Source of the DNA: Spirosoma rigui | GTDB taxonomy: Bacteria; Bacteroidota; Bacteroidia; Cytophagales; Spirosomataceae | Assembly: GCF_002067135.1 (NCBI RefSeq) | Contig: NZ_CP020105.1 | Span: 5,530,001 to 5,594,000, forward strand | Reading direction: 5' to 3' | DNA length: 64,000 nucleotides | Part shown: positions 44,001 to 64,000 of the stretch, piece after piece | How positions within the stretch are numbered: position 1 is the stretch's first letter | Layout: every line of letters begins with the position of its first letter | Notes under the pieces: generated by a model | Told to the model about the DNA's origin: nothing | Database searches by the model: none | What the model saw: the letters and a program-made list of their open reading frames with translations, nothing else | Position numbers and translations under genes: made by a program

Positions 44001-45515
44001 CTAAAGAGCCGGTCGCTTGTCAAACCAGGGCTGTGCCTGTTCCAGCTGACCCGCCAGCCGAAATAATGTGGCGTCGTCGCCTAGTTTGGCCGCAAACATG
44101 ACACCAATGGGTAACCTGTCGGCCGACCCATGCAGCGGTACCGACATCGACGGCTGGCCCGTCATGTTGGTGATGACGGTATACGATATGTAGTTAAGCG
44201 ACTTCTCGGCCAGTTCATCGACCATTCTGGAGCCTTTCAGGTACTTCAGTCCGCTCACGGCATCGGCCAGTTTAAGCATTCGTTCTTCCGCTGCTGTGTT
44301 CTGGAATGTACCGATGGCAATGGGCGAACGGGGCAGCGTGGGCGTCAGGAAAACGTCGTAGGTTTCGTGGAGTTGCCCCATGCTACGGTTCAGCGCGTTC
44401 CAGCGTCGCTTCTGGTACGTAACATCACCCGCCGAGTAGCCCGCAGCCATGCGGCTCAGCGCCCAGGTGTTCAGTTCCACATCGTCCCGCCGGAGGGGCC
44501 GCCCCAGGTAGTTGGCCAGTTCCCGCAGGGTAGCTGCCGTTTCGCTCAGCACGTTCAGAAAAAAAGCCTGGGTGACAATGGTTTTCTCGTAAGGCAGCGG
44601 CACCTCCTCCACCGTATGACCCAGCGTTTCGAGCAACCGTACCGTATCCCGAACCGCCTTCACGCAGACCGGGTCGGTAGGTTGCCCCTGCATCAGGGCC
44701 TGGGTCGAAAAAGCAACCCGCAGGCGTCCCGGCTCCCGACCAACTTCCTCCGCAAAGGGTCGTTCGGGTGGGGCGATACCGTAGGGGTCACCCGCCAGCG
44801 GTCCCGACACAACATCGAGCAGCCCGGCGCTGTCGCGTACGGAACGCGTGACGGCATGGCTGACAACCGCCCCGCCCCACATTTCGCTGTAGCCCGGCCC
44901 CAGCGTGACCCGCCCGCGCGACGGTTTGAACCCGAACAGGCCGCAGCAGGATGCAGGAATACGAATGGAACCGCCCCCGTCCGAAGCGGTAGCTGCCGGA
45001 ACAATACCCGAAGCAACGGCCACCGCCGATCCCCCACTCGACCCACCCGGCGAATAGGCTGGATTCCACGGGTTCCGGGCGGGACCGTACAGCGTCGATT
45101 CCGTGTAGGGCGTGAGGCCAAATTCGGGCGTATTCGTTTTGCCAAATAAAACAAGCCCTGCGGCTTTCAGTCGCTTCACCACTTCACTGTCGACCGACGA
45201 TACGTAGTTTTGGTACCCCCGGCAACCCGATTTGAGGGGCGTTCCGGCCCACTCCAGTTCCAGATCCTTCAGCAGAAACGGTACGCCCCGGAAAGGCCCC
45301 GCAGCTGGCAACTGCGTTGCCATGGCGCGTCCCTTGTCATATAGGGGCGTGACAATAGCGTTCAGCGCGGGGTTCACCGCTTCGGCGCGGGCGATGGCCG
45401 TTTCGAGGAGTTCGGCCGGGGATACCTGCCCCGTCCGAACAAGGCTGGCCAGGGACGTAGCATCGTGCCCGACGTAGTCGTCGAATGACAGAGTGGGTGT
45501 GGTGGAAACAGGCAT
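44001..45515 (-). CDS. Amidase signature family enzyme
   Basis: A 504-residue amidohydrolase with the Ser-cisSer-Lys triad: K83 in FLLKDLE, S159 in [11 protein letters not shown] and the nucleophile S183 in [11 protein letters not shown]. There is no signal peptide, so it should act in the cytoplasm. The partner subunits of GatCAB are missing and its C-terminus differs, so it is not GatA. It follows the propeller gene at 45563 by 47 bases on the same strand, so it is probably the last gene of that transcript. The acyl-amide substrate is unknown. Confidence 0.9.
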
Positions 45516-45562
45516 AGGGATAGACAGGGTTTCGTTTGCCCGTCAATGTAATGCAAAACGCC

Positions 45563-48562
45563 TTACCGTAGGCTGTTCTTCCAGGCGCTGTACTCACTTG
45601 CAACCTTTTTCAGCGTAGCCTGGGCATCGGTTACGGCCGCTATGGCCTGGGTAGTCGGCGGCATGTCGGCATCCTGCAGTATCCCGAAAACGGTGCTGAA
45701 TGCTCGATTCAACCCGGTCAGGCCCACGTCCAGCCGCTCGGCGGCCTTTTTCTGCTCCTCGGTTTTCATGCGCGCCTGTAATGCCTTCACTTCCTCCTGC
45801 CACGCCAGCACCTGCTTCCGGCCCTCGTAGGCAATCACCGACAAGTCATGCTGCTGCTTCAGCGCTACGGATGTCGTTTTCACCCGTGGGTCCATCGTGA
45901 TCACGAGCGGCTGGCTGTAGACTTTTCCGTCGACGGTGAGCGTTGCGGTATACATCCCGGGCATCACCCAGGGCGATGTAAATTCGGGGGCCGTCTGACC
46001 ATAGGTGGCAGCAATGGGATACGAAGGCGGCAGGGCCAGCGGGCTGTAATGCATATCCCACGTGAACCGGTGTGCTCCGGCCGCGCCCGACAGTATCTGT
46101 TGCGGCCGAATCCAGTAGGCCGGTAAGTTCACATCCGGAACCGTATAGGGTTTATCGTCGCTCCGGAACTGATGAACCCGTTTGCCAGCCGCGTCGGTAA
46201 TGGTGAGCGTGACAACCTGACGGGCGTTTGTGCTCAGGTAGTAGTTGATCACGGCCCCGTCGGGTGGATTCTGACCGGCGGGTTCTTCCTGTGGCAGCGG
46301 GGTATCGGGGTTCATGTTCCACCGAACACGGTAGGCCCGCCGGGGTTTGTACAGAATCGTCCCGGCTGTTGCCAGATCGGTGGTCAGCTGGCGCAGGGGC
46401 GTGAGATCGTCCAGTATCCAGAACGACCGCCCATGGGTGCCCACTACCAGATCGTCGTCTTTGATCACCAGATCCCGAATCGACGTAGCGGGCATGTTCA
46501 ACCGCAGTGACTGCCAGTGGTCGCCATCATCGAACGACACGAACACGGCCGTTTCCGACCCGGCATACAGCAGCCCTTTCCGGACCGGATCTTCGCGAAC
46601 GGCATTGATGGGGTCATTGGGCAAACCCGTAACAATCTCTTTCCAGCTCCTGCCGCCGTCGTGCGTGCGGTAGATGTGCGGACGCAGATCGTCGCACCGG
46701 ATGCGGTTTACGGCGGCATAGGCGGTGTTATCGTCGGAGTGACCGGCGTCGATGAGCGACACTTTGCTCCAGGAGCCAACGCCCGATGGGGTAACGTTCT
46801 GCCAGGTTTTGCCGCCGTCGCGGGTAATGTGGATCAGACCATCGTCGGTACCAGCCCAGATCGTATTGACCGACTTATGCGAAGGGGCTATGGTATAGAT
46901 AACGCCCCGGGCGGGCATGGTTTTCATGGCGTCGGTCCGGTACACACCCACGCTTTCCGGAATATCGGGGTACGACGGGCGCGTCAGGTCGGGGCTGATT
47001 ACCTGCCAGGAATTACCCCCATCGCGGGTTTTAAAGAGGACGTTTCCGGCGAAGTACAGCGTTTGGGGATCGATAGGCGAAAACAGCACCGGGGCTGTCC
47101 GGACAAAGCGGTACTTACCACTGCGCACGGCTTCGGGCGCGATATTCTGCACCTGTCCGGTTCGCTTGTCGAACTTCGTAACCTTACCGCCGTAGATGAT
47201 ATTCGGGTCGAGCGGGTCGGCCGCTACGTAGCCATATTCTTCCACACCCACCGGATGCCACTCCCGAAACGTCACCTGGCCGTCGTTGCCCCGGCTCGCA
47301 ATACCGACCGAACCACTCTCCTGCTGACCGCCCAGTACGTTATACGGAAAACTGTTGTCTGTACTGACGTGGTAGAATTGCGCCGTTGGCTGATTATACC
47401 ACGAACTGAATGTCTGCCCACCGTTTACGGTGATGATCGCGCCCTGATCGCCCGCCAGAATCATCGTGTTGGGATCGGTGGGGTTGATCCAGAGCCGGTG
47501 GTAATCGTCGCCACCGGGGGCGCCCCGAAAATCCTTCCAGCTTTTGCCGCCATCGTCCGATTTCCAGGCCGATACGTCGGCAATGAACACCACGTCCGGA
47601 TTGGTGGGGTGCACTTTCACCTCGGCAAAATCACTACCCCGCCCCCACAGCCGCCCATCGCTATTGATACGGCTCCACGACTGGCCGGCGTTATCGGATC
47701 GGTAAACGCCACCCAGTTCGGGCGCGTCGACGGTAGCGTAGAGCCGGTTGGGCTCGCTGGGGGCAATGCAGAAGCCGATCCGTCCCAGGCCCTGCTCAAC
47801 GGTGGGCAGGCCGGCCGTCAGTTTTTGCCAGCTGGTTCCCCCATCGGTCGATTTATACAGGCCACTTTCGGGGCCCTGCCACTGGCCGTTTTCCCACGGT
47901 CCCTGCCGCGCGGCCCACAGGTCAGCATAGACAATGTCTGGATTCTTCGGGTCGATGGTTACCTGAACGGCACCCGTATTTTCGTCTTTATACAACACCC
48001 GATCCCAGGTCTTTCCGCCATTGGTCGTGCGGTACACGCCCCGCTCGGTATTGGGGCCGTAGGGGTGACCAAGTACGGCGGCAAACACCCGATTTTCGTT
48101 GGTCGGGTCAACGCTGATGCCGCCAATCTGCTGCGCATCGCTCAGGCCGAGGAACGTCCACGTTTTGCCTGCGTCGGTCGATTTGTACATGCCCGTTCCC
48201 ACCGACAGATCGGGGCGCTGCAAGCCTTCGCCACTGGCTACGTAAATAACATTGGGGTTGGAGGGTGCTACGGCCACGTCGCCGATAGAACCCGTTGGCT
48301 GGTCGTCAAAGATGGGCAGCCAGGTGCGGCCGTAGTCGGTCGTTTTCCAGACACCCCCGTTGTTGACACCCATGTAAAATACGTTGGGCTGCTGGGGAAC
48401 GCCCACCGCACCCACCGTCCGGCCACCCCGGTGCGGGCCAATCATCCGCCAGTTCATGGCATTGAACAATTTTGGCGGGAAAGGCTGCGCCTGAAGGGGG
48501 GCCAGCGGAGTAGCCAGGGTCAGCAGGCACAGCTGCCACTGGACAAGGGTGCGGAAGTTCAT
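45563..48562 (-). CDS. Secreted sortilin-like beta-propeller, paralogue 1
   Basis: A 999-residue exported protein. The signal is at residues 1-26 (ending PLQAQ), followed by MNWRMIGPHRGGR, the block shared by all three paralogues. Eleven Asp-box (BNR-type S/T-x-D-x-G-x-x-W) motifs follow in order, from KTTDYGRTW near residue 73 to SFDDGDHW near 690. This is the repeat pattern of VPS10/sortilin ten-blade propellers. A beta-sandwich similar to a FlgD-like domain (about 800-890) and a helical tail complete it. Sialidase catalytic residues are not evident, so a glycosidase role is unsupported. Confidence 0.85.
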   Translation of the reverse strand: MNFRTLVQWQLCLLTLATPLAPLQAQPFPPKLFNAMNWRMIGPHRGGRTVGAVGVPQQPNVFYMGVNNGGVWKTTDYGRTWLPIFDDQPTGSIGDVAVAPSNPNVIYVASGEGLQRPDLSVGTGMYKSTDAGKTWTFLGLSDAQQIGGISVDPTNENRVFAAVLGHPYGPNTERGVYRTTNGGKTWDRVLYKDENTGAVQVTIDPKNPDIVYADLWAARQGPWENGQWQGPESGLYKSTDGGTSWQKLTAGLPTVEQGLGRIGFCIAPSEPNRLYATVDAPELGGVYRSDNAGQSWSRINSDGRLWGRGSDFAEVKVHPTNPDVVFIADVSAWKSDDGGKSWKDFRGAPGGDDYHRLWINPTDPNTMILAGDQGAIITVNGGQTFSSWYNQPTAQFYHVSTDNSFPYNVLGGQQESGSVGIASRGNDGQVTFREWHPVGVEEYGYVAADPLDPNIIYGGKVTKFDKRTGQVQNIAPEAVRSGKYRFVRTAPVLFSPIDPQTLYFAGNVLFKTRDGGNSWQVISPDLTRPSYPDIPESVGVYRTDAMKTMPARGVIYTIAPSHKSVNTIWAGTDDGLIHITRDGGKTWQNVTPSGVGSWSKVSLIDAGHSDDNTAYAAVNRIRCDDLRPHIYRTHDGGRSWKEIVTGLPNDPINAVREDPVRKGLLYAGSETAVFVSFDDGDHWQSLRLNMPATSIRDLVIKDDDLVVGTHGRSFWILDDLTPLRQLTTDLATAGTILYKPRRAYRVRWNMNPDTPLPQEEPAGQNPPDGAVINYYLSTNARQVVTLTITDAAGKRVHQFRSDDKPYTVPDVNLPAYWIRPQQILSGAAGAHRFTWDMHYSPLALPPSYPIAATYGQTAPEFTSPWVMPGMYTATLTVDGKVYSQPLVITMDPRVKTTSVALKQQHDLSVIAYEGRKQVLAWQEEVKALQARMKTEEQKKAAERLDVGLTGLNRAFSTVFGILQDADMPPTTQAIAAVTDAQATLKKVASEYSAWKNSLR

Positions 48563-48682: not shown

Positions 48683-49738
48683 TTACTTTTTCAGGTACCA
48701 GAGAAACAGCCCCGTAACGGTCACTACGGCCGTTGCCAGCGCCAGCAGGATATAGATCACCTGCGTTACCCAGCCCCCGTAGCGGCCGAAGTGCAGCTCC
48801 TCGAAAATGTGTTCGGCAATGTATTCCAGACCGGCGTCCTTGGCGTCCATCCCGCTGATGTAGTGCCCATTCCGCGCATCGATCGTGGCCGATACGTTGA
48901 ACTTGCCCAGCAGCCGGATACTACCCGGCAGGTTGCCCCGAATTACGAGCGTACTGTCGCCCGGCTTCGGAAAATCAATCCGTTGCGGCTGGAAGTCAGC
49001 GATGGTCGTTTTCGCAACGGCCAGCGCCGAGTCGACCGGGATGGCCGTCAGGGCAATGGACTCCACGCGGGGTTGGCCAGACGCTTCGCCCCCGAAGCTC
49101 CGCTCGATCTGCTCCCAGTGGAAGAAAATACCCGTAGCACTCATCAGGAGCATGAACAGCAGCGCCACCACGCCCAGCCATTTGTGAATGTCGGCATAGA
49201 CGATGCGCGGTGACTTGTTCCAGCGCACGCCAATGTTGAATACGCTCAGCAGCGACCGGCGGTAGTACCAGGTCCCGGTCAGCACCGACCCGAGCAGGCA
49301 GATACCCGCCAGGCCCATAATAAAGCCCCCGACGGGTTCCAGCAGCAGGTTCTCGTGGAGTTCCCGCGCCCGCCGGATCAGGGTGGTGTCGGCATTGCGG
49401 GCGGCAATGATGGTACCGGTATACGGGTTCATGGTCACCCACAGCCGTAGGCCACTGGCCATCAAATCGACCCGCACGGGTTCTCTGGGATCACGATCCG
49501 AGAACTGCAGGCTGCGTACCTGCGCCGTTGGGTAGTAGCGATGGATGGTTGCCATAAGCTGGTTATACGGCTGGCGCTGTCCCGTGGGGTCAACCTGCGT
49601 CAGGTTTGGATTCAGCAACGCATCGACCTGTTTTTCTACGACCAGAATAGATCCCGTGACGGTAAGGATCAGGATAAAAAGACCGCCAACGAGTCCGAGA
49701 ATTCGGTGATAGCGGTAAATGGCTTTATCAGAAAGCAT
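48683..49738 (-). CDS. PepSY-associated TM protein (FoxB/PiuB-like)
   Basis: A 351-residue inner-membrane protein with four membrane helices: residues 15-35 (ILGLVGGLFILILTVTGSIL), 136-158, 185-205 and 325-348. Two periplasmic PepSY-like segments lie between them. Histidines at helix ends (YRYHRILG, RELHENLL, DIHKWLG, ELHFGRYGG) are candidates for binding two hemes, as in the FoxB-type siderophore or heme reductases. It sits between two propeller genes in a TonB-receptor locus, fitting a role in releasing iron after uptake. The propeller gene upstream is separated by a hairpin. Confidence 0.88.
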   Translation of the reverse strand: MLSDKAIYRYHRILGLVGGLFILILTVTGSILVVEKQVDALLNPNLTQVDPTGQRQPYNQLMATIHRYYPTAQVRSLQFSDRDPREPVRVDLMASGLRLWVTMNPYTGTIIAARNADTTLIRRARELHENLLLEPVGGFIMGLAGICLLGSVLTGTWYYRRSLLSVFNIGVRWNKSPRIVYADIHKWLGVVALLFMLLMSATGIFFHWEQIERSFGGEASGQPRVESIALTAIPVDSALAVAKTTIADFQPQRIDFPKPGDSTLVIRGNLPGSIRLLGKFNVSATIDARNGHYISGMDAKDAGLEYIAEHIFEELHFGRYGGWVTQVIYILLALATAVVTVTGLFLWYLKK

Positions 49739-49791: not shown

Positions 49792-52700
49792 TTAATTCAG
49801 AATAATAGCGGGTACGTTCTGCTCGGCGACCATTTTATTGAAGCCCGGCACCTGCGTGTTCACAACTTCTTTCAGCTTGCTCAGCGCCGTATCGATCTGC
49901 TTGGCCAGGTCGTCGTAGGCCGTATATGATGATTTGGTTGGCTTGGTGTCGGCCGAGGAAACGACCGAAGCGACGCCCGCCATTTTATCGTTCAGGCGAA
50001 TGGGATAGGCCAGCGCGTCCTGTGGTGCTTTCGACTTGGGCTGCATCAGCGTCGACTCGATCTTGTCCAGCTCGTCGAGCATGGGCTTGGCCGCGTTCTT
50101 GAACTTCTCGGCCACCTTCGGATCTTTAACGCTGTTGGTGTATCCGTTGATCTGGGTCCGTACCTGCCGCAGCTGGTTGATGGCTTTGTGGGTTTCTGAG
50201 AGCTTTCCGTTGATCTTCTGCATCAGGTCGAACTGCGCCTGGTACTCGGCCGCCGTGATGGCCAGCCGCGGATCTTTCCGGATCTCGATGGGTTGCTCCG
50301 CAATGAGCGAGTCGCCCAGTAGCATCCGTACCTTATACATGCCCGGTATTACTTTCGCCCCCGTACCGCGGCCCGTCCACATGACGTTGGTGCCTTCTAC
50401 GGCCGTCGCATCCGGGTACCGCATGTCCCAGACGAAGACATTCATGCCGGGCTGCGCCGGTATGGAGCCGGGGCGCGGGGCGGTTTCGTCCTGATAAAAT
50501 TCCTTCGCCACTTTGAGCGGCTGCCCTTTTTTGTCTTTCGTGCTGGAATACGTACTGATCGTATCGCCCGTTGCCGTCATGTACAGCAGCTTCAGTTCTT
50601 TGGCTGGCTTATTTTTCAGGTAGTAGCGCGTGATGACACCGTTCTGGGCGTTTTCCCCTTCGTCCGTTGGTGCGCCACGTCCCCGGCGCGGGTTGCCGGC
50701 ACCGCCTTCCATCCGGTAGGCATGGCGTGGTTTGTAGAGGTGCATGGCCGCCACCGACTTACCCCCCTGTTTCATATCCATCAGTTCGTGGAGCGGGGTA
50801 ACATCATCCATGATCCAGAACGACAGGCCGTGGGTAGCAATGACCAGGTCTTTCTCGCGCTTGTGAATCTGCAGGTCGCGAACGGGCGTAACCGGCAGGT
50901 TCATGTTCAGTTTCTGCCACGAGCCGCCATCATTGAACGATACATATACGCCACGCTCGGTACCGGCATAGAGCAGGCCCGGCTTGTTGGGGTCCTCGCG
51001 CACAACATGGCAGTGCTCATCGGCCGGGATACCGGCGGTGATACTTGTCCAGGTTTTACCGTAATCCGTGGTCTTGAACAGGTACGGTTTCCGGTCGCCC
51101 GACATGTACCGTTTGGCTGCCAGATACGCCTTTCCGGCCGTATGGTCGGACGGATGCACGATGCTCATGATCGCCATGTCGGGCAGCATCGACGCGGGTG
51201 GCGTGATGTTCTGCCAGGTTTTACCCCCGTCGCGGCTGATGTGCATAACGCCATCGTCGGAGCCGGTCCAGAACACGTTTTTCTCGGTAGGCGACTCAGC
51301 GAATGTAAAGATCGTTGGGAAGGTTTCGGCCCCGGTGTTGTCTTTGGTGATCATACCGCCTACGTCACCCTGCGTTTTCGGATCGTTCCGGGTCAGGTCG
51401 GGACTGATATCTTCCCACGAGTGGCCGTAGTCCGTGCTGCGGTGCAGGTACTGTGAGGTAATGTAGAGGGTTTTGTTGTCGTGCGGGGAGAAAACAATAG
51501 GGTACGTCCACTGAAAGCGGTACTTCCGCGCCGACGAGGGGGCACCCATGAAGTACTCGGGATAGACGTTGATGCGCTGGTTCTGGTCGGTGGCTTTGTC
51601 GTAGCGGGTAATCAGACCGTCATAGCTGCCGCCGAAGGTTACGTTCGGGTTGTTGGGGTCGGGCGTGATGTAGCCCGATTCGCCACCCGCCACGGAATAC
51701 CACGCTCCTTTGCCAATCGAGTATTCAGTGGTGCGGCTGGCTATCCGGATGGACGAGTTATCCTGCTGGGCGCCGTATAGGTTATACGGAAAATCGTTAT
51801 CGACGGCTACGTGGTAGAACTGTGCGGTTGGAATGTCGACGTCCGAGAACGTAGCGCCCCCATTGTAGGTGATCTCGGCTCCGCCGTCGTCGGCGATGAT
51901 GAAGTTCTGCGGGTTTTTGGGGTTCCACCAGATGTCGTGCGTGTCGCCGTGGTGTACTTCAATGGTTTTGAATGTCTTGCCGCCGTCGTACGATTTCATC
52001 GCGTTTACGTTCAGCACGATCAGGCCGTTCTCGTCCATCGGGTCGGCCGCCAGCATCATATAGTACCAGGGGCGCTGCCAGAGGTTTTTGTCTTCGTTGA
52101 TGAGCTGCCACGATTCGCCGGCATCGTCAGAGCGGTACAGGCCACCTTTGGCATTCTCGACCATGGCATAGAGCCGGTTGGAGTTAGCGGGCGATACGGT
52201 AATACCGATCTTACCCAGCATTCCTTTGGGCATCCCGGGTTTGGTGCTCAGGTTCGTCCAGGTGTCGCCCCCGTCGGTCGATTTGAACAGGCCACAGCCG
52301 GGGCCACCACTGCTCATGGTGTAGCTGTTGCGGTAGGCCTGCCACATCGATGCATAGACGATCGACGGGTTGTTGGGATCGAGCTTCACGACAACAGCAC
52401 CGGTACTGTCGTTTTTTGTCAGGATGGGCTTCCAGGTCTTGCCGCCATCGGTGGTGCGGAACACGCCCCGTTCCTTGTTTGGCGCGAAAGGATTTCCCAG
52501 CGCGGCAACGTAGGCCACATCCGGGTTGGTAGGGTGGACTTCGATACTACTCACGGCATCGGCCAGTTTCAGCCCGACATGTTTCCAGGTGTTGCCCGCA
52601 TCGGTCGATTTATAGATACCGTCGCCGTTGGCGATGTTACTGCGAATATCGGCCTCGCCCATCCCCACGTAGATGATATTGGGATCGGAAGGAGCTACTG

Positions 52701-53028
52701 TAATCGCCCCAACCGAACTGGACTTGAACGTACTGTCGGAGATCATGACCCAGTTGGCGCCCCCGTCGGTGGTTTTCCAGACGCCACCGCCCGTGGCTCC
52801 GAAATAATACGTCAGCGGCTGACTGGCGTGTCCGGCAGCCGCCAGCGACCGGCCGCCCCGGAACGGACCGATATTACGCCAGCGCAGGGCATTAAAGAGA
52901 CTGTCGGACGTTTGGTTCAGGCTGGTTTTCGCTACGGGTTTGGCTTTCCGCTGCGCCAGGGAAGCTTTCGGCAGCATCCCGGTCATCAGCAGTACACCGA
53001 TACAAACGGTAAATTTTCTGTACTTCAT
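49792..53028 (-). CDS. Secreted sortilin-like beta-propeller, paralogue 2
   Basis: A 1078-residue exported protein, the longest of the three paralogues. A signal is at residues 1-25 (ending ASLAQ). LRWRNIGPFRGGR follows, then eleven Asp boxes in the same order as its paralogues (KTTDGGANW first, SFNDGGSWQKL last). The C-terminal half has the FlgD-like sandwich (MNVFVWDMRYPDATAVEG, then KVIPGMYKVRMLLGD) and a helical tail (AAEYQAQFDLMQKINGKLSETHKAINQL). It is 85 bases after the heme-type TonB receptor, so likely its operon partner. Function unknown. Confidence 0.86.
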   Translation of the reverse strand: MKYRKFTVCIGVLLMTGMLPKASLAQRKAKPVAKTSLNQTSDSLFNALRWRNIGPFRGGRSLAAAGHASQPLTYYFGATGGGVWKTTDGGANWVMISDSTFKSSSVGAITVAPSDPNIIYVGMGEADIRSNIANGDGIYKSTDAGNTWKHVGLKLADAVSSIEVHPTNPDVAYVAALGNPFAPNKERGVFRTTDGGKTWKPILTKNDSTGAVVVKLDPNNPSIVYASMWQAYRNSYTMSSGGPGCGLFKSTDGGDTWTNLSTKPGMPKGMLGKIGITVSPANSNRLYAMVENAKGGLYRSDDAGESWQLINEDKNLWQRPWYYMMLAADPMDENGLIVLNVNAMKSYDGGKTFKTIEVHHGDTHDIWWNPKNPQNFIIADDGGAEITYNGGATFSDVDIPTAQFYHVAVDNDFPYNLYGAQQDNSSIRIASRTTEYSIGKGAWYSVAGGESGYITPDPNNPNVTFGGSYDGLITRYDKATDQNQRINVYPEYFMGAPSSARKYRFQWTYPIVFSPHDNKTLYITSQYLHRSTDYGHSWEDISPDLTRNDPKTQGDVGGMITKDNTGAETFPTIFTFAESPTEKNVFWTGSDDGVMHISRDGGKTWQNITPPASMLPDMAIMSIVHPSDHTAGKAYLAAKRYMSGDRKPYLFKTTDYGKTWTSITAGIPADEHCHVVREDPNKPGLLYAGTERGVYVSFNDGGSWQKLNMNLPVTPVRDLQIHKREKDLVIATHGLSFWIMDDVTPLHELMDMKQGGKSVAAMHLYKPRHAYRMEGGAGNPRRGRGAPTDEGENAQNGVITRYYLKNKPAKELKLLYMTATGDTISTYSSTKDKKGQPLKVAKEFYQDETAPRPGSIPAQPGMNVFVWDMRYPDATAVEGTNVMWTGRGTGAKVIPGMYKVRMLLGDSLIAEQPIEIRKDPRLAITAAEYQAQFDLMQKINGKLSETHKAINQLRQVRTQINGYTNSVKDPKVAEKFKNAAKPMLDELDKIESTLMQPKSKAPQDALAYPIRLNDKMAGVASVVSSADTKPTKSSYTAYDDLAKQIDTALSKLKEVVNTQVPGFNKMVAEQNVPAIILN

Positions 53029-55528: not shown

Positions 55529-55650
55529 AATGGGTAAACCAGCGGGGGAAGAGATCCACCAGATCCTGGAAATCTTCTATTTTCTATTGGCTTATTGACC
55601 GACTGACGTATAGGCATCCATCCCGCCAAACAGTGATCGATTCCTGATGA

Positions 55651-55658
55651 CAAAACTA
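55651..55658 (-). promoter_or_regulatory. Candidate -7 box for the heme-type receptor
   Basis: TAGTTTTG on the minus strand, 123 bases before the receptor ATG. The -33 region reads GCTG instead of TTTG, so support is partial. Confidence 0.4.
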
Positions 55659-55818
55659 GCCAGCAACCCTACATTCTCAGCAGCATGCCAGCAAATAACT
55701 TCGTTTTTATTTCGACCAACTCCCGAAACAAGAAACAAATAATCGATACTACTGAAGTAATTAGCCAAAATAAGGGGCCGGGCATCTAAACGACAGAATA
55801 TATTTCCTGCCCTTTCGC

Positions 55819-55849
55819 TGTGAAATGGGAAGGCGCGTCCCTAAGTTTG
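55819..55849 (+). promoter_or_regulatory. Candidate promoter for propeller 3 operon
   Basis: TGTG (55819-55822), a 19-base spacer and TAAGTTTG (55842-55849). The spacing is exactly that of Bacteroidota promoters, and the -7 box matches TAnnTTTG. The ATG is about 100 bases downstream. Confidence 0.5.
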
Positions 55850-55950
55850 TCCAGCGCATGATCATTTTTGTCCGGTCGGCGCGCTTTCCGGCCCGCTGGC
55901 GCCCTCAATGCACCACTGAATCACTGGATTGTTATACTTAACCCGTACTC

Positions 55951-58900
55951 ATGAAACATTTTTCCGTTCTTCAGGTGGCTGTCCTCTGCTGCTCGCTGAT
56001 CAGCAGCCAGCTCTGGGCGCAGAAACCAGCGCTCCCCGATACCGCCATCAATCCAGTTTTCAAAGGAATGGCCTGGCGCAACATCGGCCCGACCCGGGGT
56101 GGGCGGTCGCTCGGGTCCGCTGGCTCACCCGGCCGTAAACTGGAATACTACTTTGGGGCCGTTGGGGGCGGGCTCTGGAAAACGACCGATGGGGGCCTTA
56201 CGTGGGCACCCGTTACCGATGGACAGCTGAAGAGTTCATCAGTAGGGGCGGTGGCGGTGGCCGAATCAAACCCCGATATTGTCTACATCGGTACCGGCGA
56301 AACGCAGCTGCGCGGTAACATCATGCAGGGCGACGGCGTCTACAAATCGACCGACGCCGGCAAGAAATGGACCAACATCGGCCTGACGAACACCCAGGCC
56401 ATTGCCCGGGTCCGGGTCCACCCCACCAACCCGAACATCGTGTACGTAGCGGCCCTGGGGCACCCCTACGGTCCTAACGAGGAGCGGGGGGTATTCCGCA
56501 CCACCGATGGCGGTACGACCTGGAAAAAAGTGCTGTACAAGGGCGATCAGGCGGGAGCCGTCGATATCATCATCGACCGAAAAAACCCGAACGTGCTCTA
56601 CGCGTCGATCTGGCAGGTATACCGCAAACCCTGGAAAATGTGGGGGGGCGGGGGTGCCTCGGGCCTGTTTAAATCGACCGACGGGGGCGACACCTGGACG
56701 GAGCTGACGCGCAGACCCGGCATGCCCAAAGGAACCGTTGGCAAGATTGGCGTGACGGTTTCGCCCGTCGACCCCAACCGGGTGTGGGCCATTGTGGAAG
56801 CCGAAGACGGGGGCGTCTACCGCTCCGACGATGCCGGGATGACCTGGAAACACGTCAATAACGAACGGAAATTGCGCCAGCGGGCCTTCTACTACTCCCG
56901 TATCTATGCCGACCCGCTCGACAAAAATGGTGTCTACTGCCTCAATGTTGACTTCTTCAAATCAACGGATGGCGGGGTGAAGTTCGACAAATCAATCAAA
57001 GTACCCCACGGCGACAACCACGACCTCTGGATCGATCCCGCCGACTCAACCCGCATGATTGCGTCGAACGATGGCGGGGCAGCGGTTTCGGTTAACGGCG
57101 GCAAGAGCTGGACCGACGAGAATTTCCCCACCGCCCAGCTCTACCACATCACCGTCACGAATGATTTTCCGTACCACGTAGCCGGAGCGCAACAGGACAA
57201 CTCGACCGTGGCTATGGCCAGTGAAGGCTGGGGCAACAAGCTCGCGCGGGGCAACAGCCTCAAAAAAGGCGAGTGGACCTACGAAGTGGGCGGGGGCGAA
57301 AGCGGCTACATAGCCCAGGACCCCAAGAACCCCGACATTTTCTACGCTGGCAGCCAGGGCGCGTTGCTGACCCGCTACAACCGCGCCACGGGTCAGGTCC
57401 GTGATGTGCAGGTCTATCCGCGTTTCTTCTCCGGCGAACCCGCCAGCGCCCTGCCCGAACGCTGGCAGTGGACCTACCCCATCGTGTTTTCACCCAAAGA
57501 CCCGAACCGGCTGTATGTCTGTTCGCAACACGTCTGGGTGTCGACCAACGAAGGCCAGAGCTGGGAAAAAATCAGCCCGGACCTGACCCTGGCCGATACG
57601 GCGACGCTGGGGAAAACCGGCGGGGTGATCACAATGGATATGAACGGCCCCGAAATCTACGCAACCGTTTTTGCGCTGGCTCCCTCCTACCACGACGTCA
57701 ACACGATCTGGGCGGGATCGGACGACGGGCTGATCCACATCACCCGCGACCACGGCAAAACCTGGCAGAAGATTACCCCACCCGATATGCCGAAGCATAC
57801 GCGGGTGAGCCTCATCGAAGCATCGCGCCACAAGCCCGGCACTGCCTACGTAGCGGCCAAACGCTACCAGATGGACGACCGTGCCCCGTATATCTGGAAA
57901 ACGGACGACTACGGCAAGACCTGGACGAAGATAATTACCGGCCTCCGCGCCGACGACTATGCCCATGCCATCCGGGAGGATATTACCAAACCGGGACTGC
58001 TCTACGCTGGTATGGAGCATGGCGTGTACGTGTCGTTCAACGATGGAGCCAACTGGCAACCCCTCCAACTTAAATTGCCTGATACCCAGATTGCCGACAT
58101 CCAGGTGACCGAGAAAGACATTGTCATTGGCACCCACGGGCGGTCCGTTTACGTGCTGGACGATGTGTCTCCCGTTCGGGAGTTTACACCCGAGCTGGCC
58201 AGCAAACCGGTCCACCTGTTCAAACCCTATTATGCCGTTCGTCGGGTACAGCCAGCCGTGTTCCAGTACTACCTCGGTAAACAGGCCGACAGTGTTAAAA
58301 TCGAGATTCTGGACGCGGCCGGAACAGTTATCCAGTCGTTCACCGGCAATAAACCAACGTACCCAAAAGTCGATGAGGACGACGACTCGGAGCCCGGCAA
58401 ACCCGTTGTGAAGCTACCCACGACGGCGGCTGGCCTGAATCGTTACGAGTGGGACCTGCGCTACCCCGGCTCCACCTATTTCAAGGGGCTGATCATGTGG
58501 GGCGCGCGGCCAACCTCGGGTCCCCTCGCCCTGCCGGGTCAGTATCAGGTACGGCTCACGGCGGGCGGTCAGTCGAGTACCCAGCCATTTGAGATCCGGC
58601 TCGACCCGCGGCTGACGAACGTTACCAACGCCGATGTGCAGGAGCAGTTTAAGCTGGCGATGAAGCTGCGCGACCAGACCAGCAAAGCCAACGACGCCGT
58701 GGTTCGGATCCGGGCGGTGAAAGAAAAACTGGCGAAGCAGCCCGACAGCCCGGCCAGCAAAAAGCTGAAAGAGCAGTTGAGCGTCATCGAAGAAAACCTC
58801 TACCAGATCCGGAACCAGAGCGGCCAGGACCCGCTCAACTTCCCCATCAAGCTCAACAACCGGCTGGCGGCCCTCTGGCGCAGCGTCGAGAGTGGCGATG

Positions 58901-59019
58901 CCAAACCTACCGACGCGTCCTATAACGTGTACAATGAACTGTCGGCGGATCTCGACAGGCAGATGGCCGAACTGGATGCGCTCCTGAAAACAAAAACGGT
59001 AAAAAGTATCGGACTGTAA
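55951..59019 (+). CDS. Secreted sortilin-like beta-propeller, paralogue 3
   Basis: A 1022-residue exported protein. The signal ends near residue 24 (SSQLWAQ). MAWRNIGPTRGGR is followed by eleven Asp boxes: KTTDGGLTW (77-85), KSTDAGKKW, RTTDGGTTW, KSTDGGDTW, RSDDAGMTW and six more, ending SFNDGANW. A linker with DEDDDSEPGK (about 807-816) leads to the FlgD-like sandwich (YEWDLRYPGSTYF, then LPGQYQVRLTAGG), and a long helical tail closes it. It heads the plus arm of the locus, 3 bases ahead of the small GTG-start gene. Confidence 0.86.
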   Translation: MKHFSVLQVAVLCCSLISSQLWAQKPALPDTAINPVFKGMAWRNIGPTRGGRSLGSAGSPGRKLEYYFGAVGGGLWKTTDGGLTWAPVTDGQLKSSSVGAVAVAESNPDIVYIGTGETQLRGNIMQGDGVYKSTDAGKKWTNIGLTNTQAIARVRVHPTNPNIVYVAALGHPYGPNEERGVFRTTDGGTTWKKVLYKGDQAGAVDIIIDRKNPNVLYASIWQVYRKPWKMWGGGGASGLFKSTDGGDTWTELTRRPGMPKGTVGKIGVTVSPVDPNRVWAIVEAEDGGVYRSDDAGMTWKHVNNERKLRQRAFYYSRIYADPLDKNGVYCLNVDFFKSTDGGVKFDKSIKVPHGDNHDLWIDPADSTRMIASNDGGAAVSVNGGKSWTDENFPTAQLYHITVTNDFPYHVAGAQQDNSTVAMASEGWGNKLARGNSLKKGEWTYEVGGGESGYIAQDPKNPDIFYAGSQGALLTRYNRATGQVRDVQVYPRFFSGEPASALPERWQWTYPIVFSPKDPNRLYVCSQHVWVSTNEGQSWEKISPDLTLADTATLGKTGGVITMDMNGPEIYATVFALAPSYHDVNTIWAGSDDGLIHITRDHGKTWQKITPPDMPKHTRVSLIEASRHKPGTAYVAAKRYQMDDRAPYIWKTDDYGKTWTKIITGLRADDYAHAIREDITKPGLLYAGMEHGVYVSFNDGANWQPLQLKLPDTQIADIQVTEKDIVIGTHGRSVYVLDDVSPVREFTPELASKPVHLFKPYYAVRRVQPAVFQYYLGKQADSVKIEILDAAGTVIQSFTGNKPTYPKVDEDDDSEPGKPVVKLPTTAAGLNRYEWDLRYPGSTYFKGLIMWGARPTSGPLALPGQYQVRLTAGGQSSTQPFEIRLDPRLTNVTNADVQEQFKLAMKLRDQTSKANDAVVRIRAVKEKLAKQPDSPASKKLKEQLSVIEENLYQIRNQSGQDPLNFPIKLNNRLAALWRSVESGDAKPTDASYNVYNELSADLDRQMAELDALLKTKTVKSIGL

Positions 59020-59022
59020 CCC

Positions 59023-59562
59023 GTGTCGACCTTCCGCAAGACCATAGGCAAGCTAGCCGTAATCGCTACGTTACTGACACTGACGGGCGTTTACGGCTAC
59101 TACTATGGCCTCGAATGGATGGCGAAATGGGCCTTCGCCCACCAGACCTACTTTGCCGCCGACGAACTGGTTCTCATCGCCGTTGCCCAACAGGATCTGA
59201 CGGCTGAGACAGCGTTTATACTCGACGAGCGCGAGTTTGAATGGCAGGGCGACATGGTCGATGTGTTGCACCGCGAGATTCGGTCTGATACGGTATATAT
59301 TTACGGGTTCCGCGACAACGCCGAAACCCAGCTTAAAAAGCAGGCGGCCTGGCTCTACCAGGACCCGGCTCACCCCTACCGCCGGTCCAACACCCGAACC
59401 AAGCGGCTCAAGTGGATCAGTTTGATCAACCCGTCGCACGCGGCACCGACCGATTTCCAGCCATCGGGCATGCGGCCCAGCCGGCAACCCTCGTTTTCCT
59501 ATATTACCCCCCGCCTGTCGCTTCCGTACCCGGAAGTCCCGAGCCCTCCCCCCAATTCATAG
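59023..59562 (+). CDS. Small protein of unknown function coupled to propeller 3
   Basis: A 179-residue protein with one N-terminal membrane or signal segment (IGKLAVIATLLTLTGVYGYY, residues 8-27). A compact domain follows: EREFEWQGDMVDVLHREIRSDTVYIYGF at about 69-96. The C-terminal third is Pro/Ser/Arg rich and looks disordered. The start is GTG, 3 bases after the propeller stop, so translation is probably coupled. Proteins of similar size and pattern are often found before TonB receptors in Bacteroidota, but I cannot name the family. The gene precedes a receptor by 97 bases. Confidence 0.72.
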   Translation: MSTFRKTIGKLAVIATLLTLTGVYGYYYGLEWMAKWAFAHQTYFAADELVLIAVAQQDLTAETAFILDEREFEWQGDMVDVLHREIRSDTVYIYGFRDNAETQLKKQAAWLYQDPAHPYRRSNTRTKRLKWISLINPSHAAPTDFQPSGMRPSRQPSFSYITPRLSLPYPEVPSPPPNS

Positions 59563-59659
59563 ACGGCTGCCCGTTTTTTTGCGTCTGGTTTTCTGAACCA
59601 GTACCCCGGACCGCTATGCCGTTCCGGCCGCATTCTTATTTCCCCAATCAGCAACTTCT

Positions 59660-62002
59660 ATGAAATCAGTATTGATCCGATCTCTTCCTCTGCTCTTCTT
59701 TTTTTCCTTTTTCAGCCCGTACCTCTACGCCCAGGTGACGGTAAGCGGCCGCGTCATTGACCCCACCAACAGCCAGCCCATTGCAGGCGCTACGGTACTC
59801 GTCAGCGGAACATCGCGGGGCACCACGGCCAACGACAAAGGGCAGTTTGAGCTGAGCGCCGGCGAAGGCGACAAGCTCCAGATCTCGGCCATCGGCTACC
59901 AGACCCAGACCGTACCCATCAAGGCAACTACGGGTAGGCTGACCGTTGAGCTGGAACCGTCCAACACCGCCCTTAACGAAGTCATCGTAGCCGGCTATGC
60001 TTCGCCCCAAACCGTCCAGCGGACGGCGGGCGCGGTGGGCCTGGTCACGAGCCGCGACATTCAGCGCACAAACGGCATTCACCTTCAGAACTTCGTGAAC
60101 CTGATTCCGGGCGTGAAGGTGGAAATGCGGACGGTAGCCGCCGGCAACCGGATTGTCATTCGGGGGTACGGTAACCAGACCAATTTCAACGGCGTCGGCT
60201 ACAAAGCGTACCTCAACGACATTCCCCTCACCGATGGCGATGGTACTACGTTTCTGGACGATGTCGACTTTACGACCCTGAGCCGGGTGGAAGTACTGAA
60301 AGGGCCCGCGTCCAGCGCCTACGGGAATGCCCTGGGCGGGGTCGTCAACTTCTATACCGAACGCGCCCCTATTGGCAAAACGAGCGTTAGTCAGCAGGTG
60401 CTGGCAGGTTCCTACGGTCTGTTTCGGACCAATACATCGATCAAAACCGGAACGGATAACACCAGCTTGAACATCAACTACGGTCACCAGAAATACGACG
60501 GCTTCCGGCTGCACGGCAGTTCCAAAAAGGATTTCCTGAGCATCACCAGCGATACCTACCTGAGCCAGAAACGGTCAATGTCGGTCTTTGTGGGCTATAC
60601 CAACTCCTACGATCTGCTGTCAGGTCAGGTAGATAGCCTCAACCTGATCGTTCATCCCGACACGGCCGAAGTCGCGTACCTGCGCAACAACGCCAGCATC
60701 AAAACGGAAAGCGCCCGGGTGGGCGTGAGCCACAGCTACCAGTTCACGGATCACGTCTCGAACAAGACAACGCTCTTCGTGGGCGGTCAGGTCATTGACC
60801 AGCCGTTTGCCGCCGGGGTCAACAAGACGAACAAGATGAAGTTTGGCGGGCGAAGCGTGTTCACTTACGCCCACGATGGCAGTTCGCTACGTCCCGCGCT
60901 GAGCGTTGGTGCCGAATTCCTGAAGAACTTCAACTACGCGAAAGCCTACGGCCTGACGAACGGTATCCTCGGCGCGCTCCGCTCCGACCTGGAAATTCAG
61001 GCCATGCAGTACAACATCTTTGCCCAGGCTGCCCTCCAGTTAGCTCCCCGGCTGACGCTGTCGGCGGGAGCCGGCCTCAACTACGTCGAGTACGGCATCA
61101 CCGATATGCGGGCCAGCACCACGACGCCGGTATACGTAAACGCGTCGGGCTACAAACGCTTCAAACCGGTTCTTGCTCCGCGGGCCGCCCTGTCCTATCA
61201 GGTCGCCGACAACGTATCCCTTTACGCCAGTGTGAGCGAGGGCTATTCGGCCCCGGCCACCAACCAGGTCGTGATTGCGCAGACGGGTGTGGTCAACTAC
61301 AACCTGCTGCCGGAACTGGGCACTAGCTACGAGATTGGCAGCAAAGGCAGCCTGCTGACGAAAGCACTGACCTACGAAATCGCGTATTTTACCATGGCCG
61401 TGACCAACAAGCTTATCCCGCAGAATTTCCCGGCTACGGCAACGCAACCCGCCTACACGCTGACGGCCAACGCGGGTAACGTGCAGCACAACGGACTGGA
61501 ACTGGCCGTTCAGTATGCTTACCGACCCCTGGCGGGGGCCGTGTCGCTGGTCCGTCCGTTCGTGTCCTACACCTACAGCGACTTCTATTACAAGGATTAC
61601 AAGAGCGACAACAACGGCGATGCCAAGACCATCAACTACACGGGCAAGAAAGAATCAGGTATTGCGCCGAATCTCCTGAACGCGGGTCTGGACGTGGAAC
61701 TACGGCCTGGTTTTTACCTGAACACTACAATGATGTATGTCGACAAGATGCCCATCACACTCGCCAACGACCACTACGCCAAAGCCTATACGCTGGTCAA
61801 CAGTAAGCTGGGTTACCGGAGCGCGCTGGGCCGCCATTTTAACCTGGACGTGTATGCCGGTTCGGATAACATGCTGAGCAGCACCTATTCGTCGCTGATC
61901 TTCCTGAACCTGCCCAACCCGGCCAACAACCGGCCCCTGTTTTTCAACCCCGCCCCGAAAATCACGTTCTATTCCGGTGCTATGCTGAACTACACGTTTT
62001 AA
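59660..62002 (+). CDS. TonB-dependent receptor with CarboxypepD-like domain
   Basis: A 780-residue outer-membrane receptor. The signal is residues 1-24 (ending YLYAQ). The CarboxypepD_reg-like domain has VSGRVIDPTNSQPIAGATVLV (about 28-48) and GYQTQTVPI. The plug carries VLKGPASSAYGNALGGVVNF, and the barrel ends FYSGAMLNYTF with a terminal Phe, as expected for BAM recognition. It lacks the FRAP/NPxL heme motifs of the other receptor (SEGYSAPATNQVVIA only resembles them), so a siderophore or another iron complex is possible. An HmuT-like binding protein follows. Confidence 0.92.
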   Translation: MKSVLIRSLPLLFFFSFFSPYLYAQVTVSGRVIDPTNSQPIAGATVLVSGTSRGTTANDKGQFELSAGEGDKLQISAIGYQTQTVPIKATTGRLTVELEPSNTALNEVIVAGYASPQTVQRTAGAVGLVTSRDIQRTNGIHLQNFVNLIPGVKVEMRTVAAGNRIVIRGYGNQTNFNGVGYKAYLNDIPLTDGDGTTFLDDVDFTTLSRVEVLKGPASSAYGNALGGVVNFYTERAPIGKTSVSQQVLAGSYGLFRTNTSIKTGTDNTSLNINYGHQKYDGFRLHGSSKKDFLSITSDTYLSQKRSMSVFVGYTNSYDLLSGQVDSLNLIVHPDTAEVAYLRNNASIKTESARVGVSHSYQFTDHVSNKTTLFVGGQVIDQPFAAGVNKTNKMKFGGRSVFTYAHDGSSLRPALSVGAEFLKNFNYAKAYGLTNGILGALRSDLEIQAMQYNIFAQAALQLAPRLTLSAGAGLNYVEYGITDMRASTTTPVYVNASGYKRFKPVLAPRAALSYQVADNVSLYASVSEGYSAPATNQVVIAQTGVVNYNLLPELGTSYEIGSKGSLLTKALTYEIAYFTMAVTNKLIPQNFPATATQPAYTLTANAGNVQHNGLELAVQYAYRPLAGAVSLVRPFVSYTYSDFYYKDYKSDNNGDAKTINYTGKKESGIAPNLLNAGLDVELRPGFYLNTTMMYVDKMPITLANDHYAKAYTLVNSKLGYRSALGRHFNLDVYAGSDNMLSSTYSSLIFLNLPNPANNRPLFFNPAPKITFYSGAMLNYTF

Positions 62003-62004
62003 GC

Positions 62005-62026
62005 AGAGACGCATCATTGCGTCTCT
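62005..62026. repeat. AGAGACGCA hairpin, possible REP-like element
   Basis: AGAGACGCA-TCAT-TGCGTCTCT is a perfect 9-base-pair hairpin three bases after the receptor stop. It lacks a T-run. Similar GTAGAGACGC hairpins are known to me as dispersed repeats in several bacterial groups; this is the only copy in the window. Confidence 0.5.
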
Positions 62027-62058
62027 ACGGGGCAATTCACCTACTTATTAGTCAATAC

Positions 62059-62928
62059 ATGAAAATCACCCGCATTCTTTTACTCATTACCATACTCGGT
62101 ATGGGCATAACCGCCTGTACATCAACGCAGAAAGACCAAACGCAGGCCACCGGCACTCAACGCATTGTCTGCGTAGCCAAGCAGCTTACGGAGATGATTT
62201 ATGCGCTCGGCGCAGGCGACCAGCTCGTTGGCGTCGATCTGTCGAGTACGTATCCGGCCGCTGCCGGACAGCTGCCTAAGGTGGGGTACCACCGGCTGCT
62301 CAACGCCGAAGGGATCATTGCCCTCAAACCAACGGTCGTCTACCACGATGGTAACGTAGCCCCCGAAGCCGTGATGCAGCAGCTCGAAAAGGTGGGCGTA
62401 CCGATGAAGGTGTTTCCCGATGCGCATACCATTGCCGAAGCCAAAGCGCTGATGGATACGCTGGCCGCGCAGTTCGGTGCACAAAAACAGGCCGACAGCC
62501 TGAAAGCGAAGCTGGACACCGATCTGGCCAAAGCCGCGCAGGAAGTGAAGCAGTATAAGACTACGCCCAGAGTAGCCATTATCCACTTCGGGCGGGTCAT
62601 CAATAACTACCTGGTGATTGGCAAAGCGGGCACGGCGTCGTACATGCTCGAGCTGGCGGGTGGCAAAAACGTCATGGATACCCTCAAGGGCATGAAGCCT
62701 CTCAGCCCCGAGATCATCAGCAAAGCCCAGCCCGACATTATCCTCGTCACCGATTTCGGCTACGACCGGATGGGTAATGCGGATAAGCTGGCGATACTGC
62801 CCGGCATTGCCCTGACGCCCGCGGGTAAAAACAAGAAAATCTACCGCATCGAAGAACACGACCTCATTTACCTCGGTCCCCGCACCGGCGAGAATGTGCA
62901 GATGCTCATGAAGTTGATTCACCAGTAA
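62059..62928 (+). CDS. Heme/iron ABC transporter substrate-binding lipoprotein (HmuT-like)
   Basis: A 289-residue periplasmic binding protein of the class III (BtuF/HmuT) fold. The signal ends with the lipobox ITAC at C20, so it is tethered to the inner membrane. RIVCVAKQLTEMIYALGAGDQLVGVD (35-60) and LPKVGYHRLLNAEGIIALKP (72-91) match HmuT/ShuT proteins. In HmuT the Tyr in the VGY segment is a heme ligand; here it is Y77. ELAGGKNVMDTLKGMKPLSPEII is the second lobe. It is followed by a FecCD permease after 59 bases. Confidence 0.9.
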   Translation: MKITRILLLITILGMGITACTSTQKDQTQATGTQRIVCVAKQLTEMIYALGAGDQLVGVDLSSTYPAAAGQLPKVGYHRLLNAEGIIALKPTVVYHDGNVAPEAVMQQLEKVGVPMKVFPDAHTIAEAKALMDTLAAQFGAQKQADSLKAKLDTDLAKAAQEVKQYKTTPRVAIIHFGRVINNYLVIGKAGTASYMLELAGGKNVMDTLKGMKPLSPEIISKAQPDIILVTDFGYDRMGNADKLAILPGIALTPAGKNKKIYRIEEHDLIYLGPRTGENVQMLMKLIHQ

Positions 62929-62987
62929 TCTGGTAGGGTGTCGGGGCTGACCGGGCGGACGCTCCAGGACCCGACACCACAAAAACC

Positions 62988-64000
62988 ATGAAACTATCTT
63001 CTCTTTCTCCCGGTCAATGGTACGGTCTGCTGACTGCGCTGTTGCTGGTGTGCATTGTGGCGGCTCTACGTATTGGTGCGGTCGATTTATCCTTCAGCGA
63101 CATTTACCATAGTCTGCTGAACGGCCTGGGGCTGTCGACTACGGCTGTAGATCCTGTTTCGCAGGGACTGTTTTTGCAGATCAGGTTGCCGCGGGTGCTG
63201 CTTTGTGCGACGGTAGGCGCAGGATTGTCGGTATCGGGCGTGCTGATGCAGGCGCTGTTCCGAAACCCCATCGTGGAGCCGGGTCTGGTAGGTACCAGCG
63301 CCGGGGCGGCACTGGGGGCGGCCCTGGTCTTTGTGCTCGGCAAGAACATCAACTGGGCCTTCACCGATGCGCTCGGCTTGTTCCTGCTCCCCTGCGTTGC
63401 CTTTATTTTTGCGTTCATCGCCACGCTGATCGTGTACCGAATTGCGTCGGCCAGCGGAAAAGTGAATGTCGCCACGATGATTCTGGCCGGTATCGCCATC
63501 AACGCGCTGGCCACCGGTGGCACGGGCTTTCTGTCGTACATGGCCCGTGACCCGCAGGCGCGTTCTATTACGTTCTGGAATCTGGGCACGTTCTCCGGGG
63601 CCGACTGGACCCAGTTCGCTATCGTCTTTCCCGTTACGTTGGTGGGAATTCTGCTTTCGTTGCGGTTTACAAAGGCGCTGAACATTTTGATTCTGGGCGA
63701 GGACGAAGTGCGGCACCTCGGCTACAACATCGACCGGCTCAAGATTCAGGTGCTTTTGCTGAACACGCTGCTGGTCGCGATTGGCACGGCGATGGTTGGC
63801 GTCATCTCGTTTGTAGGGCTGGTAGTGCCGCACCTGCTGCGGTTGCTAAAAACGTCGGATAACCGCTTTCTTGTGATAGCATCGGCACTGCTGGGCGGGT
63901 CGTTGCTCACGCTGGCCGACACCCTGGCCCGGCGGCTGGTAGCGCCCGCCGAGTTTCCGATCGGCGTCATCACCGCGTTCGTGGGTGCCCCGGTCTTTAT
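62988..64000 (+). CDS. FecCD-family heme/iron ABC permease (partial, runs off the window)
   Basis: The frame opens with ATG at 62988 (MKLSSLSPGQWYGLLTALLL) and stays open to base 64000, giving about 337 residues without a stop. Hydrophobic helices alternate with the family markers IRLPRVLLCATVGAGLSVSG, FRNPIVEPGLVGTSAGAALG and LGEDEVRHLGYN. The EAA-like loop VGVISFVGLVVPHLLRLL is also present. These are typical of HmuU/BtuC-type permeases that move heme, iron-siderophore or cobalamin. It belongs with the HmuT-like gene; the ATPase gene should lie beyond the window. Confidence 0.93.
   Translation, partial: MKLSSLSPGQWYGLLTALLLVCIVAALRIGAVDLSFSDIYHSLLNGLGLSTTAVDPVSQGLFLQIRLPRVLLCATVGAGLSVSGVLMQALFRNPIVEPGLVGTSAGAALGAALVFVLGKNINWAFTDALGLFLLPCVAFIFAFIATLIVYRIASASGKVNVATMILAGIAINALATGGTGFLSYMARDPQARSITFWNLGTFSGADWTQFAIVFPVTLVGILLSLRFTKALNILILGEDEVRHLGYNIDRLKIQVLLLNTLLVAIGTAMVGVISFVGLVVPHLLRLLKTSDNRFLVIASALLGGSLLTLADTLARRLVAPAEFPIGVITAFVGAPVF

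Follow-up and report, generated by a model that had tools for sequence, protein, structure and literature searches.

In the Bacteroides xenosiderophore utilisation system XusABC, as described in excerpts of one source, a TonB transporter is combined with a ferric-siderophore-binding propeller and a PepSY reductase (PMC13142918). Here we analyzed a 64,000-nucleotide stretch of the Spirosoma rigui genome (contig NZ_CP020105.1, positions 5,530,001 to 5,594,000; hereafter the window), which encodes two TonB-dependent receptors (TBDR1 and TBDR2) and three giant Asp-box propellers (PROP1 to PROP3), together with a PepSY_TM protein and genes of a heme-type ATP-binding cassette (ABC) importer. Like XusABC, this locus unites a TonB-dependent transporter, a beta-propeller and a PepSY inner-membrane protein, and the N-terminal part and plug of TBDR2 match 9gbc (E 5e-20, residues 8-259), which is XusA according to the same excerpts (PMC13142918). 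An initial annotation of the window had stated that no described system has this composition, which was too strong a claim given the similar composition of XusABC. The two differ in their propellers: XusB is described there as a seven-bladed DUF4374 surface lipoprotein of 400-490 residues (PMC13142918), whereas the Spirosoma propellers are Asp-box proteins of 999-1082 residues, several per locus, with neither DUF4374 nor a lipobox. The Spirosoma locus also adds a complete heme ABC importer. Because the DUF4374 and surface-lipoprotein features are missing, it is Xus-like at most.

The periplasmic binding protein (PBP) and ATPase match those of HmuTUV/PhuTUV, with a FecCD-family permease between them; the ATPase scores above the cut-off of the curated NCBIfam heme ABC ATPase model (279 vs 261 bits). 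The six best PDB matches of the PBP are 5gj3, which is named just periplasmic binding protein, and five proteins named for heme or hemin binding or transport. Its GY-R-LNAEG region aligns with HmuT in the region of the heme-binding Tyr. To our knowledge, HmuTUV/PhuTUV operons contain no propellers; a further difference is that the Spirosoma receptor TBDR2 is nearest to YncD/PqqU.

In BtuBG vitamin B12 uptake, a TonB receptor is likewise aided by an accessory ligand-binding protein, again according to excerpts (PMC13142918). The Spirosoma ATPase, in contrast, fits the heme model, and no cobalamin riboswitch was found at the locus. This absence is weak evidence against vitamin B12 as the substrate, and the permease scores highest with BtuC models, below their cut-offs. 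BtuG differs in being a surface lipoprotein. E. coli YncD-YncE sets a TonB receptor beside a propeller. A second set of TonB receptor, PBP, FecCD permease and ATPase, with no propellers in 20 kb, lies at G000:C1:3614001-3634000 (L171; labels with G, L, g and f denote genomes, loci, genera and families of the sample, G000 being S. rigui). Its permease is nearest to BtuC models, and its PBP, which shows 34-37% identity to the window PBP, has relatives that are common in the genus.

A heme-type operon joined to propellers in Spirosoma

The occurrence of these genes was examined in 36 Spirosoma genomes, with propeller carriers called at E 1e-200. Propellers were present in 15 of the 36. The PepSY orthologue (at least 71% identity; in two pieces in G170) was found in 13 of the 15 propeller genomes and in none of the 21 others (Fisher 5e-8, without correction for relatedness). 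The HmuT orthologue (at least 76%; broken in G170) occurred in 14 genomes, namely the 13 with propellers and PepSY, and G146. In 12/15 genomes, FecCD and a propeller were no more than 10 kb apart, the exceptions being G150, G159 and G168, the last of which has its FecCD on another contig. G150 and G159 carry propellers over three contigs each and have no HmuT or PepSY orthologue; in both, PROP2 stands divergent to TBDR1 and the rest of the block is absent.

Of the 13 genomes drawn, 12 have these genes in a single uninterrupted block, with gaps mostly below 200 bp. The order is PROP4-ATPase-FecCD-HmuT-TBDR2-SMALL-(PROP5)-PROP3, divergent from (TBDR1)-PROP2-PepSY-(PROP1), and each block holds three to five giant propellers. 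The blocks show losses and rearrangements, most of all in G147; PROP4, PROP5, PROP1 and TBDR1 are each missing in some genomes. The complete heme-type operon SMALL-TBDR2-HmuTUV is joined to PepSY_TM, propellers and, in 7/13 genomes, TBDR1, packed in an operon-like manner. SMALL, for which neither Pfam nor NCBIfam gave a match, is the gene ahead of TBDR2 both in the genus blocks and in G146, a genome without propellers. In G170 (G170:C1:1528000-1555999; L191, L192), the frames of PROP2, PROP4, PROP5, HmuT and PepSY are broken and others of the block are whole, through decay or read errors; this was not counted as joint decay because the assembly may hold read errors.

Flanking open reading frames (ORFs) were compared at 50% identity and 70% coverage, several genomes having few such ORFs or none on one side. 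They were common only to G039/G148/G151 and to G152/G168, plus one ORF shared by G156 and G018. The inner block is thus maintained as a unit in genomic surroundings that differ. Within the genus, the association of these genes is not a matter of chance. DUF4374 was found in 2/15 propeller genomes and 8/21 others (p 0.14, not significant), and the idea that XusB complements the propeller system within the genus was rejected.

By its composition, the block would be a heme/iron import locus, and from the linkage we infer that the propellers take part in heme or iron uptake, as the initial annotation had proposed. Our preferred reading, to which we assign a probability of roughly 45%, is that of a lineage-specific Spirosoma iron/heme uptake locus, in which a heme-type operon, PepSY_TM and the propellers act in uptake in a Xus-like manner. 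The receptors would bring heme or a ferric complex across the outer membrane. The propellers, exported by a signal peptide and unanchored, would bind or process the incoming ligand or its carrier in the periplasm and pass the ligand on, either to HmuT or to PepSY_TM. The latter may reduce or release iron, by analogy with FoxB/XusC; the structure 7abw, matched by the PepSY_TM protein, is presumably FoxB. Such a locus would work like XusABC, with a propeller of another family and probably on the opposite side of the outer membrane. A narrower proposal, doubtful in our view, makes the soluble giant propellers a periplasmic counterpart of Xus: inside the outer membrane they would accept heme or a ferric complex as it leaves the receptor, for transfer either to HmuT or to a PepSY reductase. 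If true, it would give the widespread PF15902-labelled bacterial propellers their first function.

The block is found in about a third of the genus species examined and provides a testable clue to the role of a common propeller family, because its other genes have fairly clear functions and it is present in some species and absent in others. Propeller-assisted TonB uptake would then include exported proteins without an anchor in addition to surface lipoproteins.

Propeller family and predicted location

PROP1-4 each contain 11 matches to the strict Asp-box pattern [ST]x[DN]xGxx[WF], and the PF15902 scores of the three window propellers are 115-129 bits, vs a cut-off of 33. The term sortilin-like, used in the initial annotation, reflects this Pfam label; in comparison with known structures, however, a profile of 97 propeller sequences was nearer to GH74 (best match, E 3e-20) than to sortilin (1e-6). 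GH74 xyloglucanases and sortilin/Vps10 proteins are likewise Asp-box propellers (PMC2716378). The N-terminal blade of the Spirosoma propellers gives a weak alignment to GH74 that starts at the first strand. The Asp of YARTD, which we take to be the first GH74 catalytic residue, is replaced by T, V or N in this weak local alignment. The nearest NCBIfam model is named glycosylhydrolase and scores 135-154 bits, below its cut-off of 175. Pfam matches of PROP1-3, PROP4 and PROP5 included PF15902 and no Sortilin/Vps10 C-terminal family; in a further difference from sortilin/Vps10, the Spirosoma propeller region is followed by a longer C-terminal part. DUF4374 (PF14298) gave no match at E 0.01 in the same five propellers and none in the S. 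rigui genome, and XusB was absent among the PDB matches of the profile.

Outside the Asp-boxes, 35 positions with polar or aromatic residues reach 95% conservation or more in the 97 sequences, 22 of them within the first 460 residues. Eight residues (R52, R121, R179, R311, D355, H357, D374 and Q415) are invariant in 97/97. All four full propellers found in the S. rigui genome, which is one 5.83-Mb contig, fall within 28 kb. They lie on different family branches of a FastTree tree with some long branches, and therefore represent distinct propellers brought together, not the products of recent tandem duplication. Only one other such place is listed in the genome, an open frame of 364 residues (G000:C1:761835-762521; L011) whose two sortilin-type matches are weaker.

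By eye, the signal peptides at the N-termini of PROP1-4 end in A|Q and carry no lipobox. These ends agree with the Bacteroidetes Q-rule as given in excerpts of its source (PMC5837995). Among 144 relatives, 121 had a recognisable mature start, and 87 matched the A|Q or A|E pattern, with five matches to the lipobox pattern that, by eye, sit within the hydrophobic stretch. For the C-terminal sorting domain of the type IX secretion system (T9SS), PROP1-3 gave no C-terminal match and one internal 16-bit match, in PROP1 (cut-off 23). Because no lipobox and no T9SS signal were found, the exported propellers are likely periplasmic and are probably not surface capture proteins; heme or iron capture outside the cell, the reading of the initial annotation, thus looks unlikely.

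Asp-box propellers are very widespread in bacteria and have a wide range of likely functions, according to excerpts of a survey (PMC2716378). Those of about 1000 residues occurred under eight phylum labels in our sample, and the order search gave as many as eight matches in one genome. In open-licence papers, we found no function assigned to these propellers and no description of the locus. Six genomes of family f8 (G067, G085, G100, G114, G127 and G139), only 1.3-1.6 Mb in size, have four to eight 3-kb propeller matches each, an unusual load for small genomes. The record of Flavobacterium sp. SUN052 (L013, L050) contains propellers up to 82% identical to PROP3 and another that groups with Spirosomataceae genus g3, and may be mislabelled or mixed.

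Linkage outside the genus and alternative explanations

At family level, propellers (E 1e-60) were present in 28/61 genomes, and FecCD, PepSY_TM and TBDR1 were counted in 20 of these 28. FecCD occurred in 7/20 and adjoins propellers only in three genus members. A TBDR1 orthologue was present in 17/20, with a weaker second copy in G040. In 8 of these 17 genomes, from five genera (G000, G039, G018, G044, G042, G015, G034 and G022), it was located no more than 3 kb from a propeller. This compares with 0.13 expected, an approximate value not corrected for relatedness. In genus g18, PepSY and TBDR1 adjoin propellers and FecCD is lacking.

For the phylum as a whole, the best 80 of 586 propeller relatives in GTDB genomes were examined, in loci of about 5-23 kb; the TonB search models were trained on these loci themselves. 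Pfam was also scanned for immediate neighbours, covering 133 of 149 flanking ORFs of L014-L083; L012, L013 and L046 were left out beforehand, and L062 was dropped, its propeller having been lost to a longer overlapping ORF. FecCD, Peripla_BP_2 and PepSY_TM appeared in no neighbour family with at least two members listed, and the TonB plug in 2. Of the 141 families, the tally shows the first 25; iron genes could therefore still occur singly. The L046 locus stops immediately short of a FecCD gene, which is present in its genome, G039.

Several results weigh against a role of the propellers in iron or heme uptake. In the 80 phylum-wide loci, searches found none with FecCD, 3 with PepSY and 14 with a TonB receptor, the three PepSY loci being two from Spirosoma and one from Allomuricauda. 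PepSY_TM was present in 20/20 family genomes, yet beside a propeller in just five (G000, G004, G039, G018 and G044), with two more in which it was 8-9 kb away. TBDR1 was unlinked in 9/17 family genomes. In the order outside the family, it was present in 28/34 propeller genomes and unlinked in 27 of the 28, the only propellers considered for linkage being those with E up to 1e-200; the one case within 10 kb is G069 (3.8 kb). Even in Spirosoma, TBDR1 is missing from 6/13 blocks, and SMALL-TBDR2-HmuTUV stands alone in G146; propellers are therefore not needed for the heme operon and are an addition to it, with TBDR1-PROP2 as a second module. Propellers in and out of iron loci share the same conserved residues, which suggests one general activity that was probably recruited to the iron/heme locus. 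As to the receptor, TBDR1 remains below the curated cut-offs of TIGR01785 (Table 1) and TIGR01786 (195 vs 324 bits). Heme receptors presumably hold their heme-ligand His in the plug and between the FRAP and NPNL boxes; the plug His is conserved in 20/22 TBDR1 relatives, and the window TBDR1 has no His between its FRAP and NPNL-like boxes. A Flavobacterium columnare protein labelled Sortilin-Vps10 is listed, in excerpts of its source, as apparently T9SS-secreted (PMC9936825), so that a periplasmic site is not general for the family label.

On the phylum-wide loci, the order linkage and the neighbour tally, an iron link across the propeller family in general was rejected. The initial annotation had held that the association would be chance if most of these propellers occurred apart from iron genes, and across the family as a whole this is what was observed. 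The link that it proposed does stand in the conserved genus blocks and in the pairing with TBDR1 in five genera, and is not family-wide; likewise, the neighbourhood survey that it called for supports the link in the genus and gives the low counts above for the phylum. Seven Flavobacteriaceae loci of one propeller clade (L072, L077, L083, L084, L086, L087 and L090) share a neighbour of about 183 aa within 2 kb, all in one cluster; the representative, L077:9120-9671, matches UPF0093 (147 bits), which we take to be the heme biosynthesis enzyme HemJ.

The strongest alternative, although on balance somewhat unlikely, is that the propellers are exported enzymes, for example sugar or peptide hydrolases or lyases, whose substrates or products are imported by the receptors, with the heme genes as ecological neighbours. 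The GH74-nearest profile, the glycosylhydrolase name of the nearest NCBIfam model and the highly conserved polar and aromatic residues all fit an enzyme; the replaced GH74 catalytic Asp does not, as far as that weak alignment goes, and the name is inherited from the model. A single Allomuricauda locus (L017), with SusC, SusD, a propeller of the PROP3 clade, a small protein and PepSY on one strand, also agrees with this alternative and is regarded as a separate case; in the Spirosoma blocks as drawn (labelled ORFs only), no SusD, glycosidase or peptidase recurs.

It is improbable, in our estimate, that a propeller cluster merely landed beside the heme operon in an ancestor and that the island was then inherited or transferred as a block, with no shared function. 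The modules do occur apart, with SMALL-TBDR2-HmuTUV alone in G146 and PROP2-TBDR1 alone in G150 and G159, and propellers have few iron neighbours family-wide. Hitchhiking accounts less well for co-directional genes whose inner order is mostly the same between flanks that differ in most genomes compared, for genus g18, which retains PepSY and TBDR1 beside propellers with no FecCD, and for the linkage of TBDR1 in five genera to propellers of different subfamilies.

A further reading, in which propellers that are secreted or exposed at the surface bind a heme protein from the environment or a host and deliver it to the receptors, is very improbable: TBDR1 is nearest to the heme/hemoglobin type, XusAB surface propellers act in this way for siderophores in the excerpted account (PMC13142918), and the F. 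columnare protein is listed as T9SS-secreted (PMC9936825), but the Spirosoma propellers have no lipobox, no T9SS signal and Q-rule N-termini, and many of their first 460 residues are conserved across phyla rather than variable.

Layout of the window and neighbouring features

The ten ORFs of the two arms (amidase, three propellers, PepSY_TM, two TonB receptors, a 179-aa ORF, HmuT-like PBP and FecCD) were all verified, and their content, order and strands agree with the initial annotation. So does the pairing, in each arm, of one receptor with at least one propeller of about 1000 residues and 11 Asp-boxes, both in coordinates and in Asp-box counts. From the centre outward, the minus arm reads TBDR1, PROP2, PepSY_TM, PROP1 and amidase; the plus arm reads PROP3, SMALL, TBDR2, HmuT-type lipoprotein and FecCD permease, followed by the ATPase past the window end (Table 1). 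Neighbouring genes within an arm lie 3-120 bp apart, the two arms are separated by 422 bp, and permease and ATPase overlap by 8 bp. Gene calls are the longest ORFs, hence rough starts and overlaps.

Table 1. Features of the Spirosoma rigui locus in the window and just beyond it
Feature	Position	Strand	Basis
Amidase	44001-45515	-	ORF at outer end of minus arm
PROP1, propeller 1, 999 aa, 11 Asp-boxes	45563-48562	-	PF15902 116.6 bits; signal peptide ending A|Q by eye
PepSY_TM inner-membrane protein	48683-49738	-	PF03929 171.6 bits; 7abw E 7e-8, residues 9-82
PROP2, propeller 2, 1078 aa, 11 Asp-boxes	49792-53028	-	PF15902 128.5 bits
TBDR1, TonB-dependent receptor nearest heme/hemoglobin type	53114-55528	-	TIGR01785 210 bits (below cut-off of 317); PhuR best in PDB
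Divergent intergenic region with TAAGTTTG 5' of PROP3	55529-55950	.	Aligned genus intergenic regions
PROP3, propeller 3, 1022 aa, 11 Asp-boxes	55951-59019	+	PF15902 115.3 bits
SMALL, 179 aa, by eye a single hydrophobic stretch at the N-terminus	59023-59562	+	No family
TBDR2, TonB-dependent receptor nearest YncD/PqqU	59660-62002	+	6v81 E 4e-30; PF00593, Plug
HmuT-type periplasmic heme-binding lipoprotein	62017-62928	+	PDB relatives; HmuT region alignment
FecCD-type permease (HmuU position)	62988-64000, ends beyond window (L009:2988-4055)	+	PF01032 292.9 bits
ABC ATPase, beyond window after permease	L009:4048-4827		Curated NCBIfam heme ABC ATPase model
PROP4, fourth full propeller, about 6 kb beyond window	G000:C1:5600214-5603462		11 Asp-boxes

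In S. rigui, PROP4 sits behind ORFs that are absent from the block in other genomes. The amidase was rejected as a part of the locus, since it adjoins the block only in S. rigui among the 13 genus genomes drawn. In the intergenic region between the arms, TAAGTTTG upstream of PROP3 is kept in 9/11 aligned genus intergenic regions; G167 and G170 lack it. Farther upstream, the same nine also retain a TTATTT...AAATAA pair. We take TAAGTTTG to resemble the Bacteroidetes -7 promoter element. At the start of the window, positions 1-433 on the minus strand hold a partial 16S rRNA gene.

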